The notes beneath the pieces were generated by a model. That model ran no database searches. It had not been told where the DNA came from and worked only from the letters and a program-made list of their open reading frames with translations. From positions 558,001 through 622,000 of the forward strand of contig NZ_WOWO01000002.1 in assembly GCF_009831455.1 (NCBI RefSeq): a DNA stretch of 64,000 bases. The letters are read 5' to 3'. The stretch comes from Salinirussus salinus (lineage in GTDB: Archaea > Halobacteriota > Halobacteria > Halobacteriales > Haloarculaceae). Position 1 is the first letter of the stretch; every line of letters starts with the position of its first letter. A program made the position numbers and the translations under genes. Positions 36,994 through 39,900 of this stretch are shown piece after piece.

Positions 36994-37362
36994 ATGGCTC
37001 TGGAGACGATGGAACCGAACCCGGTGTGGGCCTCCGACGCCTACGCCGACACGGTCGACACCCTCGCCGAGCACCGCGGACTGGTCTACAAGGTCTGGGG
37101 CGGCGACTGGTGCAAGGACTGCCGGGCGCAGCTGCCGGATTTCGGGGCAGCCCTGAAGGAGGCAGGCATCCCGGAGGAGAACATCAGCCACCACGAGCTC
37201 GACGAGGACAAGCAGGGGCCGGGCGTCGAGGAGTACGGTATCGAGTACATCCCGACGGTCGTCGTCGAACACCGCGGCGAGGAGATCGCCCGCTTCGTCG
37301 AGGAGGAACCGGTCCCCATCGCGGTCTACCTGGCCCAGCGCATCGAGGACTACTTCGGGTGA
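36994..37362 (+). CDS. Thioredoxin-family protein with CKDC active site, 122 aa
   Basis: The fold is thioredoxin-like with the redox site GGDWCKDCRAQLPDF and the cis-Pro loop EYIPTVVVEHRGEE. CKDC is an unusual CXXC variant, but both Cys are present, so dithiol activity is possible. The long helix after the site (AALKEAGIPEENISHHELD) and C-terminal helix are normal. Start ATG 36994 follows its TATA box. It may use the thioredoxin reductase at 26526. Confidence 0.85.
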   Translation: MALETMEPNPVWASDAYADTVDTLAEHRGLVYKVWGGDWCKDCRAQLPDFGAALKEAGIPEENISHHELDEDKQGPGVEEYGIEYIPTVVVEHRGEEIARFVEEEPVPIAVYLAQRIEDYFG

Positions 37363-37530: not shown

Positions 37531-37563
37531 AAGGTATTTGTAGTTACTCGCATTGTGAGTAAC
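37531..37563 (+). promoter_or_regulatory. Promoter with palindromic operator before the 34-aa gene
   Basis: A TATA-like GGTATTTG (37533-37540) lies about 28 bases before ATG 37565. Between them is an inverted repeat, GTTACTC at 37543-37549 and GAGTAAC at 37557-37563 with a seven-base spacer. The position just after the TATA box is that of a repressor operator. Confidence 0.65.
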
Positions 37564-37564
37564 T

Positions 37565-37669
37565 ATGAGCGAGACGCGCTCGGAGCCCGACGACCACCTC
37601 GAAGACATCGACGACGGCTGTGGCTGTGTCGAGACCTGGGAGCGGCTGAGCGAACTCCGCGACGAGTGA
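37565..37669 (+). CDS. Small acidic protein with CGC motif, 34 aa
   Basis: This short frame starts MSETRSEPDD, contains DIDDGCGCVETWERLSEL, and ends with TGA at 37667-37669. It has its own promoter with a palindromic operator, and the codon use fits the genome. The two Cys could bind a metal or form a redox pair. I do not recognise the family with certainty. The dedicated operator argues that it is expressed under a specific condition. Confidence 0.6.
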   Translation: MSETRSEPDDHLEDIDDGCGCVETWERLSELRDE

Positions 37670-37700: not shown

Positions 37701-39821
37701 TCAGTCGTCAGTCTCGCCGGCGGCCCAGGCGAGCGCGTCCGCGACGGTCTCTTTCGGCGGCGAGCAGGCGAAGGAGCGACACGCGTAGACGGCAGGCTGG
37801 CCGTCCCGTGGCCCGCGGCCGGCCCAGATTGGCGGTGCCTCGGCCAGCTCCAGCGCGTCGAGCCACCCCTGCATCCGCTCGTCGCTGCCCGGCCGCCAGG
37901 CCAGCAGGCGAGCCGGGAGATACCGGTCGGCGACAGTTTCGTGCCACTCCGCGGGCGGGTCGTCGGCCGCGAGCGTGAGTTCGAGGTGCCCCTCCGCGAG
38001 TGTGTCCGCCGCCAGCGAGAGGCTGGCGTGCTGGAGCGGGTTCGCGTCGATCCGGTCGCCGTGGGTGTTCACGACCGTCCCGGCGACAGTTGCGAAGTCG
38101 GCCTCCGCGAAGTGGTCGAGCGCCAACAGTAGTCGCGCGGCGACGCCCGCGCTGGAGGGAGTCGACTGGTCGGAGACCTCCTGCGGGCGGGCGATGAGTT
38201 CCTCGCCGCCGGCCTGCGTGAAGTAGAGCGTCCCTGCCTCCTCGTCCCAGAACCGCTCTTCGATGGCCCGCGCCAGTTCGAGCGCGAACGCGAGGTGGTC
38301 GACGTCGCCGGTCGCCTGGTACAGGTCGAGCGCCCCCTTCCCGAGGAAGGCGTAGTCCTCGAGGTACCCCTCGACGCGGACCTCGCCGTCCTTGTAACGG
38401 CGGTGGAGGTGACGCTCCCGGGAGTCCCAGCAGTGCTCGCGGACGAACCCGAGCGCGTCGGCTGCGGTGTCGGCGTAGTCCCCGTCGAGAACGAGCCCGC
38501 CCTCGGCGAGCGCGGAGACGGCGAGCCCGTTCCAGCCCGCGAGCACCTTCTCGTCGCGGGGCGGGCGGGGCCGCGTCTCGCGCGCTTCGCGGACCTGCTC
38601 GCGGGCGCGGTTCAGCCGCTCGCGGACCTCTCGCTCGTCGAGGCCGTGCTCGGCGGCCAGTTCTGCGACCGGCGTCGAGACGGTGAGCACCGTGCTGCCC
38701 TCGAAGTTGCCGGGCTCGCTCACCCCGTAGCGGTCACAGAACAGGTCGGCGTCGGCCGTGTCGGCGACGGCCTCCCGGACCTGCTCGGGCGTCCAGACGT
38801 AGAACTCCCCCTCGACGCGCTCGCCGCTCTCGTCGGCGCTCCGCGCGTCCAGCGTGCTGTAGAAGCCGCCGTCGGGGTGCTGGAGTTCGTCCTCGAGGAA
38901 CGCGAAGGTCTCCTCGGCGACGGTCGCGTAGCGCTCCTCGCCGGTAGCCTGGTAGCCAGCCAGGAAGGCCCGCGGGAGTTCGGCGTTGTCGTAGAGCATC
39001 TTCTCGAAGTGGGGGACGACCCACTCCCGGTCGGTCGTGTAGCGGTGAAACCCGCCGCCGGCGTGGTCGTAGAGGCCGCCGTTGGCCATCGCGTCGAGCG
39101 TCTCCGTGGCGACGTCGAGATACTCGTCCTCGCCGGTGCGGTCGTACGCGCGCAGGAGGATGTGGAGCCGACCGGGCTGGGGGAACTTCTGGCCCCGGCC
39201 CCAGCCGCCGTGGGTCCGGTCGGCGCCGTTGACGGCGGCCTTCGCCGCCCGGTCGAGGACGCCGTCCTCGGGCGGGCTGGGCTGGTCGGGCACCTCCTCC
39301 AGCTCCCCCTCGATGGCGCGGGTCCACTTTGCGGCGCGCTCCTCGATCTCCTCGCGCTCCTCGGGGTCGGCCCAGGCGTCGCGGATGTCCCGCAGCAGCT
39401 GCTTGAAGCCGGGCTGGCCGCGCTTTGCCTCCGGCGGGAAGTAGGTCCCCACGTAGAAGGGGTCGCCCTCGGGCGTGAGCCAGACCGACAGCGGCCACCC
39501 GCCCTGGCCGGTGACCCGCTGGCAGATCGTCATGTAGATGCTGTCGACGTCGGGGCGCTCCTCGCGGTCGACCTTCACGGGGACGAAACTCTCGTTGAGC
39601 AGGTCGGCGGCCTCCTCGTCCTCGAAGCTCTCCTCGGCCATGACGTGACACCAGTGACAGGCGGCGTAGCCGATGGAGAGGAAGATCGGCACGTCCCGTT
39701 CTCTGGCGGCCTGTCTTGCCTGTTTGTCCCAGGGCTGCCAGTTGACGGGGTTGTCGGCGTGGGCCTGGAGGTACGGGCTGGCCTCCTCGTCCAGCCGGTT
39801 CCGGCTCGTCGGTGTGCTCAT
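37701..39821 (-). CDS. YyaL/SPATA20-type thioredoxin-domain protein (DUF255), 706 aa
   Basis: The N-terminal thioredoxin-like domain has the family phrase SIGYAACHWCHVMAEESFED and VPVKVDREERPDVDSIYM, followed by GWPLSVWLTPEGDPFYVGTYF. The remaining 500 residues form an alpha/alpha toroid similar to glycosidase or mannose-epimerase folds. The family's role is unknown. ATG 39821 (MSTPTSRNRLDEEASPYL) is favoured over 39845. It is about normal length. Confidence 0.88.
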   Translation of the reverse strand: MSTPTSRNRLDEEASPYLQAHADNPVNWQPWDKQARQAARERDVPIFLSIGYAACHWCHVMAEESFEDEEAADLLNESFVPVKVDREERPDVDSIYMTICQRVTGQGGWPLSVWLTPEGDPFYVGTYFPPEAKRGQPGFKQLLRDIRDAWADPEEREEIEERAAKWTRAIEGELEEVPDQPSPPEDGVLDRAAKAAVNGADRTHGGWGRGQKFPQPGRLHILLRAYDRTGEDEYLDVATETLDAMANGGLYDHAGGGFHRYTTDREWVVPHFEKMLYDNAELPRAFLAGYQATGEERYATVAEETFAFLEDELQHPDGGFYSTLDARSADESGERVEGEFYVWTPEQVREAVADTADADLFCDRYGVSEPGNFEGSTVLTVSTPVAELAAEHGLDEREVRERLNRAREQVREARETRPRPPRDEKVLAGWNGLAVSALAEGGLVLDGDYADTAADALGFVREHCWDSRERHLHRRYKDGEVRVEGYLEDYAFLGKGALDLYQATGDVDHLAFALELARAIEERFWDEEAGTLYFTQAGGEELIARPQEVSDQSTPSSAGVAARLLLALDHFAEADFATVAGTVVNTHGDRIDANPLQHASLSLAADTLAEGHLELTLAADDPPAEWHETVADRYLPARLLAWRPGSDERMQGWLDALELAEAPPIWAGRGPRDGQPAVYACRSFACSPPKETVADALAWAAGETDD

Positions 39822-39900
39822 AGGTCGAGTAGCGGCGCCCGCCACCTAACCTCTTGGGCGAAGCCGAACGCTTTAGTCGGCGCCTGCCGCCCACTCAGGT

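Follow-up and report, generated by a model that had tools for sequence, protein, structure and literature searches.

Operator, promoter and putative target genes in the host genome

The haloarchaeon Salinirussus salinus carries a short palindromic element in front of a gene for a very small protein, and the element, its target genes and its putative regulator are considered here. The window, a stretch of 64,000 nucleotides (G000:C2:558001-622000, contig NZ_WOWO01000002.1), belongs to a host genome of 3.37 Mb that is 99.8% complete. Within it, a TATA-like box directly abuts the palindrome, whose arms are exact and whose 3' end lies 1 base before the ATG of the microprotein gene (Table 1). Residues 18-21 of the microprotein read GCGC. 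The initial annotation of the window had described GTTACTC-N7-GAGTAAC between a TATA-like box and the ATG of a 34-residue frame with a CGC motif, and this arrangement was confirmed. A spacing rule between the TATA box and the transcription start is available for haloarchaeal promoters (PMC10817205; this and the other papers are cited from excerpts). With the centre of the box about 26 bases before the ATG, the transcription start in the window is therefore expected at the ATG or close to it.

Table 1. Elements of the promoter region (window positions) and the putative regulator (genome coordinates)
Feature	Position	Strand	Description
TATA-like box GGTATTTGTA	37533-37542	+	called from sequence; centre ~26 bases 5' of ATG
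Operator GTTACTC-GCATTGT-GAGTAAC	37543-37563	.	21 bp, 7-base spacer; putative site of TrmB-family regulator
Acidic microprotein MSETRSEPDDHLEDIDDGCGCVETWERLSELRDE	37565-37669	+	34-codon frame, 34 residues; conserved H11, C21, W25, S29, R32
TrmB-family regulator ortholog	G000:C2:382342-383163	minus	69% identity; PF01978 69.1 bits

The exact palindrome occurs as a single copy in the whole host genome. The sole copy with one mismatch, TTTACTCGCCGAGTGAGTAAC (G000:C4:626904-626924), ends 1 base before the ATG of a 391-residue homolog of UDP-sulfoquinovose synthase. When up to three mismatches are allowed, the window holds three matches against 0.91 expected from shuffles, and 5 of 100 shuffles reach three, which leaves the exact site as the only notable one in the window. 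Weak matches to the 12-letter core across the host genome (12 sites with two mismatches) were likewise set aside as chance, the control giving 18 against 14 in all.

The best PDB matches of the synthase homolog are structures of Arabidopsis SQD1 (E 2.6e-75 to 1qrr), and the YxxxK active site is retained (Y184, K188); its sequence, which matches SQD1 chains at E ~1e-75, makes it a putative UDP-sulfoquinovose synthase. Two epimerase-type genes follow the synthase gene, and the SqdB operon of Haloquadratum walsbyi likewise has two GalE homologs (PMC1544339). Some synthase frames of related genomes (L141:7802-10021, L231 in G106, G001:C266 and G136:C172) bear an in-frame insert of about 350 residues beside the catalytic Tyr and Lys, placed approximately between residues 182 and 192; in L231 the insert starts with Cys. 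From its appearance we take this insert to resemble an intein.

Distribution of the operator and its putative regulator

The exact 14-letter operator pattern was surveyed in 116 genomes of the taxonomic family, the host included, with the reversed pattern as a control. It was found in 79 genomes at a total of 123 sites, whereas the reversed pattern occurred in none of the 116. Almost all of the exact sites (118/123) abut one of two kinds of gene. The UDP-sulfoquinovose synthase homolog accounts for 75, which lie 0-4 bases 5' of its start (74 by coordinates and one in G071, locus L262). The remaining 43 lie at the start of a gene from the window's microprotein family, 0-1 base before the start codon or overlapping it. 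Gluconeogenic genes had none of the 123 sites. At locus L139, the small gene, two operators, the synthase, two epimerase-type genes and the regulator stand in one cluster. Three operators in genus g11 (L212, L215 and L220, at position 1001 of each) have a TATA-like stretch close by and no recognisable frame; they could possibly serve a very short frame or a gene for an RNA.

A set of 150 distinct promoters (74 of small genes and 76 of synthases) was used to describe the element. The search fixed the inner arm letters and left only positions 1, 7, 15 and 21 and the spacer free to vary. Even so, C at position 7 (91-99%) and G at position 15 (97-100%) are strongly fixed, and the spacer is loose. 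An A+T-rich peak lies 18-22 bases 5' of the operator in the small-gene promoters and 10-16 bases 5' in those of the synthase. In both target classes, transcription is predicted to start within the operator or at its end. The initial annotation was right in taking the palindrome, which lies over the expected transcription start, for a genuine operator. Its further claim, an operator dedicated to the small gene, did not stand, because the same operator precedes the synthase gene in the host (one mismatch) and in relatives. As judged by genome comparison, the palindrome is the operator of a regulon and not private to one gene.

The candidate for the cognate regulator is a TrmB-family protein. In Haloarcula and other genera, its gene and the small gene are oriented divergently on either side of the operator. 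The host ortholog exceeds the PF01978 cut-off by a wide margin (69.1 against 25.6 bits; Haloarcula ortholog 70.9 bits), and no match to the PF11495 sugar-binding domain was reported for the host protein or for the Haloarcula ortholog. By its domain content, the regulator is a PF01978 member outside the PF11495-bearing canonical TrmB group. Its structure model (mean pLDDT 88, pTM 0.55) finds TrmBL2 and TrmB chains as top Foldseek matches (5box, 3qph), with 268-283 columns for TrmBL2. Compared with these Thermococcales proteins, whole-chain TM-scores are 0.36-0.42 of the query with an rmsd near 15-17, and the domain arrangement differs or is uncertain. The regulator alignment comprised the host protein and sequences from 32 of 49 loci, with L151 and L152 left out for stop codons and 15 by choice.

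Across the 116 genomes, regulator and exact operator occur together in 78 and are both absent from 31; six genomes have only the regulator and one has only the operator. Each of the six genomes with only the regulator carries a near-exact operator, before the synthase in G001, G030, G110, G123 and G127 and before the small gene in G032 (L022). The lone operator-only genome, G017, is 71% complete. For synthase and regulator the corresponding counts are 83 with both, six with the synthase only, one with the regulator only and 26 with neither. The six synthase-only genomes have no operator before the synthase, the best stretch there showing four or five mismatches to the 12-letter core. One half-site is intact and in place in G089, and a degenerate stretch occupies the operator's place in G113 (where the contig ends; this genome is 81% complete). 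These six genomes span four genera (g9, g14, g18, g19), each of which has other members with regulator and synthase; regulator and operator were therefore probably lost together more than once. Nine synthase copies in regulator-bearing genomes were checked for a missing exact site: the copy in G071 has one, seven others have 0-1 mismatch in the core, and the second copy of G061 is without an operator.

Physical linkage points the same way as co-occurrence. In 40 of 84 genomes, a non-synthase exact operator is found no more than 400 bp from the regulator gene, and in 15 of 84 the synthase is no more than 6 kb away from that gene. Of the 49 regulator loci taken from genome contigs, 30 have a microprotein-family gene that starts at the operator (0-1 mismatch). 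The palindrome recurs elsewhere in the host genome, with one mismatch, and, in relatives, near a regulator gene, two places where the initial annotation had suggested looking for it. We propose, from these comparisons, that the operator is the binding site of the TrmB-family regulator. Another candidate, OxsR, was rejected as its published motif is CG-rich and unlike the operator (PMC9426492). Named records with close relatives of the regulator are mostly haloarchaeal. Archaeoglobi records (L153, L154, L156, L157) also carry relatives, with 40-62% identity over the matched part, and neither the operator nor a microprotein-family gene was seen in these four loci.

The microprotein family and its gene neighbours

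Conservation of the small protein, on which the initial annotation depended, was borne out. A profile search (E <= 1e-4) found the family in 125 of 146 genomes of the order, with 1-5 matches each, and at the loose cut-off of E <= 1 a match was present in 53 of 58 genomes, the host included. The host has two members, at C2:595568 (the window copy) and C3:532673. The pN/pS ratio is 0.29 for 79 distinct operator-linked core sequences and 0.23 for 56 others, indicating purifying selection. With ratios this low and matches in most genomes searched, the small frame behaves as a coding sequence.

Residues H11, D17, G18, G20, C21, S29 and R32 are invariant in 41 aligned members, of which Cys21 was demanded by the motif searches, so that these searches in part presuppose it. 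Beyond the aligned 41 some of these positions vary, for example D17 and S29 in L150, L310 and L146. Ala replaces the first Cys of the CGC motif in 5 of the 41 aligned sequences and at 34 of 56 further loci. Pfam and NCBIfam name no family for the microprotein, alone or over the 41 homologs, the scan of which returned just three single-member matches (E 0.019-0.058). The structure model, of low confidence (mean pLDDT 74, pTM 0.34), has a short acidic tail and one helix from residue 19, with Cys21 near the helix start. The C(P)XCG zinc-finger micro-proteins of Haloferax volcanii are likewise haloarchaeal, shorter than 70 residues and Cys-containing; they are defined by two C(P)XCG motifs, whereas none of 84 microprotein-family sequences carries one.

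Gene neighbours were surveyed in 60 fetched stretches that were hand-picked for spread rather than drawn at random, 59 from among the matches listed and one (G061) from elsewhere. Scores were obtained for 56, as L325, L347, L352 and L354 had no recognisable motif near the centre. Among the 45 operator-free copies, a NIR_SIR reductase gene is present in 33 stretches, divergent in 31. These 33 include four copies linked to a CysG-like siroheme gene and one linked to a PAPS reductase gene, the only copies of the 45 with such neighbours. DUF7119 accompanies 28 of the 45 and the regulator one, and five have none of the probed neighbour genes. DUF7119 (PF23433) often lies 3' of operator-free microprotein genes, for example at L240:5941-6793, and has a weak match to a ParB-type helix-turn-helix (HTH). 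Among the 11 operator-bearing copies, the regulator is a neighbour of nine, the synthase of four and a GT2 glycosyltransferase gene of four; one has none. Individual loci show particular arrangements, such as NIR_SIR, FrhB-like and small gene in this order at L343 and, at L264, a microprotein-family gene some 260 bp 5' of the second synthase copy in G061. Genes for metal or stress functions were not recurrent among the neighbour clusters, except for a ZIP transporter gene near the second microprotein-family gene of the host and, at 3 of 56 loci, a P-type ATPase-like frame. We infer that sulfite, common to PAPS reductase, sulfite reductase and UDP-sulfoquinovose synthase, explains the linkage of these enzymes to the microprotein.

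Proposed regulation and competing explanations

Taken as a whole, the reading that we consider fairly probable is that the TrmB-family regulator jointly controls microprotein and synthase via the palindrome, and that the microprotein assists sulfite metabolism. Comparison of genomes supplies the linkage of operator, regulator and targets, the purifying selection and the sulfite-pathway neighbours; the DNA binding, the repression, the ligand and the role of the microprotein are what we infer. The regulator would bind over the transcription start and hold the promoters of the synthase and the small gene off. Repression is the most likely mode, given that the operator overlies the predicted start of transcription, 3' of the TATA box; in work on TrmB, repressing sites lie on the promoter or 3' of the TATA box, HAH_0188 being called an exception (PMC4158304, PMC10817205). 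Release by a signal, perhaps a sugar or sulfur metabolite, would free both promoters. The synthase would then convert UDP-glucose and sulfite to UDP-sulfoquinovose, like Agl3 (PMC4388408), and the microprotein may assist the supply or use of sulfite for this synthesis. The sulfoquinovose might end up in glycans or in lipids; a GT2 gene that follows the small gene at several loci weakly favours glycans, and the H. walsbyi operon has been tied to sulfolipid (PMC1544339).

Several points weigh against this reading. All counts come from related genomes and are not independent events, and 5 of the 123 exact sites lie elsewhere, two at NDP-sugar epimerase genes (L190, L247) and three in genus g11. 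The synthase homolog scores 339.2 bits on NCBIfam NF041015, under the equivalog cut-off of 575 bits; haloarchaeal UDP-sulfoquinovose synthases form a separate, distant cluster (PMC4388408). The host genome has 11 other PF01978 matches above the cut-off (12 with the regulator), and 19 of the 49 regulator loci, the four Archaeoglobi loci included, have no operator-led microprotein-family gene. Additionally, the host small gene adjoins neither regulator nor synthase, both host microprotein genes are far from the host NIR_SIR gene (C2:1192250), and 12 of the 45 operator-free copies have no NIR_SIR gene in the fetched stretch. Sulfite is not established as the substrate of this reductase, because its best solved relatives are nitrite reductases.

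As for the operator, an ordinary target of the canonical, sugar-sensing TrmB that regulates gluconeogenesis would account for the TACT-N8-GAGTA within the site, which resembles the published H. salinarum motif TACT-N7-8-GAGTA (PMC4158304), and for the unnamed proteins of fewer than 50 residues among direct targets in Har. hispanica (HAH_0188 and HAH_2805; PMC10817205). The TrmB proteins of H. salinarum (VNG1451C) and Har. hispanica (HAH_1548) do have in common with the present system a TrmB-type HTH, palindromic TACT...GAGTA arms and some tiny-protein targets (PMC4158304, PMC10817205). This explanation is nevertheless very improbable. PF11495 has no match in the nearly complete host genome, although the same search detects this domain in a Haloferax control, and canonical TrmB was set aside as regulator for the host genome on this ground. 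Unlike those of canonical TrmB, the sites are at a sulfosugar enzyme and a microprotein rather than at gluconeogenic genes, and the exact operator tracks a different TrmB-family protein. The operator may instead belong to the proposed regulator but mediate activation. TrmB-family proteins are known both to activate and to repress (PMC4158304), and HAH_0188 is a notable exception to the rule relating motif position to direction (PMC10817205); with the operator over the predicted transcription start, where the cited papers put repressor sites, activation is rather unlikely. An RNA hairpin ahead of the start codon would suit the closeness of the palindrome to the start codons of both target genes, and is hardly credible: the palindrome tracks a DNA-binding regulator, and such a hairpin would rarely be transcribed whole because transcription starts, by TATA spacing, inside the palindrome or at its end.

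As for the microprotein, the initial annotation had suggested a metal- or stress-response peptide. The Cys-Gly-Cys of the window copy and the host ZIP transporter gene would fit, yet we regard this as quite improbable and the claim as not borne out. The CGC motif is not constant, which speaks against a CxC metal site as a shared function, C(P)XCG is absent from 84 family sequences, metal or stress neighbours hardly recur, and the links observed are to sulfosugar and sulfite metabolism. It is somewhat less improbable, and still unlikely, that the microprotein acts with HTH regulators as a partner or co-sensor, and not with sulfur enzymes. A TrmB-family gene stands beside operator-linked copies in 9 of 11 loci and DUF7119 beside 28 of 45 other copies, but copies linked to siroheme, PAPS reductase or synthase genes without a nearby HTH gene (L316, L336, L338, L344, L264) would be left unexplained. 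Its neighbours suggest that the microprotein most probably has an accessory role in sulfite metabolism and is not a metal or stress peptide. In a bolder and decidedly tentative form, these microproteins would be a new family of single-Cys sulfite partners, as carrier or donor, of haloarchaeal PAPS reductase, sulfite reductase and UDP-sulfoquinovose synthase, one branch under the sulfosugar regulator steering sulfite into surface sugar or lipid and not into cysteine.

If true, joint control would provide a specific regulator and operator for archaeal sulfoquinovose synthesis, and a testable function for an unnamed microprotein family that is widespread in the sampled haloarchaeal order. For SQD1, Sulfolobus Agl3 and Haloquadratum SqdB, the literature passages retrieved describe no regulator, against the putative one here. 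No report of the regulon or of the microprotein family was found in a full-text literature search, with subscription papers mostly outside its reach, and the TrmB content of the retrieved passages on TrmB and sulfoquinovose concerns H. salinarum TrmB only. The route of sulfite to UDP-sulfoquinovose synthase becomes directly testable as well. The Sulfolobus enzyme halts at UDP-glucose-5,6-ene at low sulfite in vitro (PMC4388408), and a delivery protein should therefore appear as a kinetic effect.

In the window, the microprotein gene is flanked by a thioredoxin-like gene (36994-37362) and a Thioredox_DsbH (DUF255) gene (37701-39845), and L005, from the only other genome of this genus, has both neighbours too.
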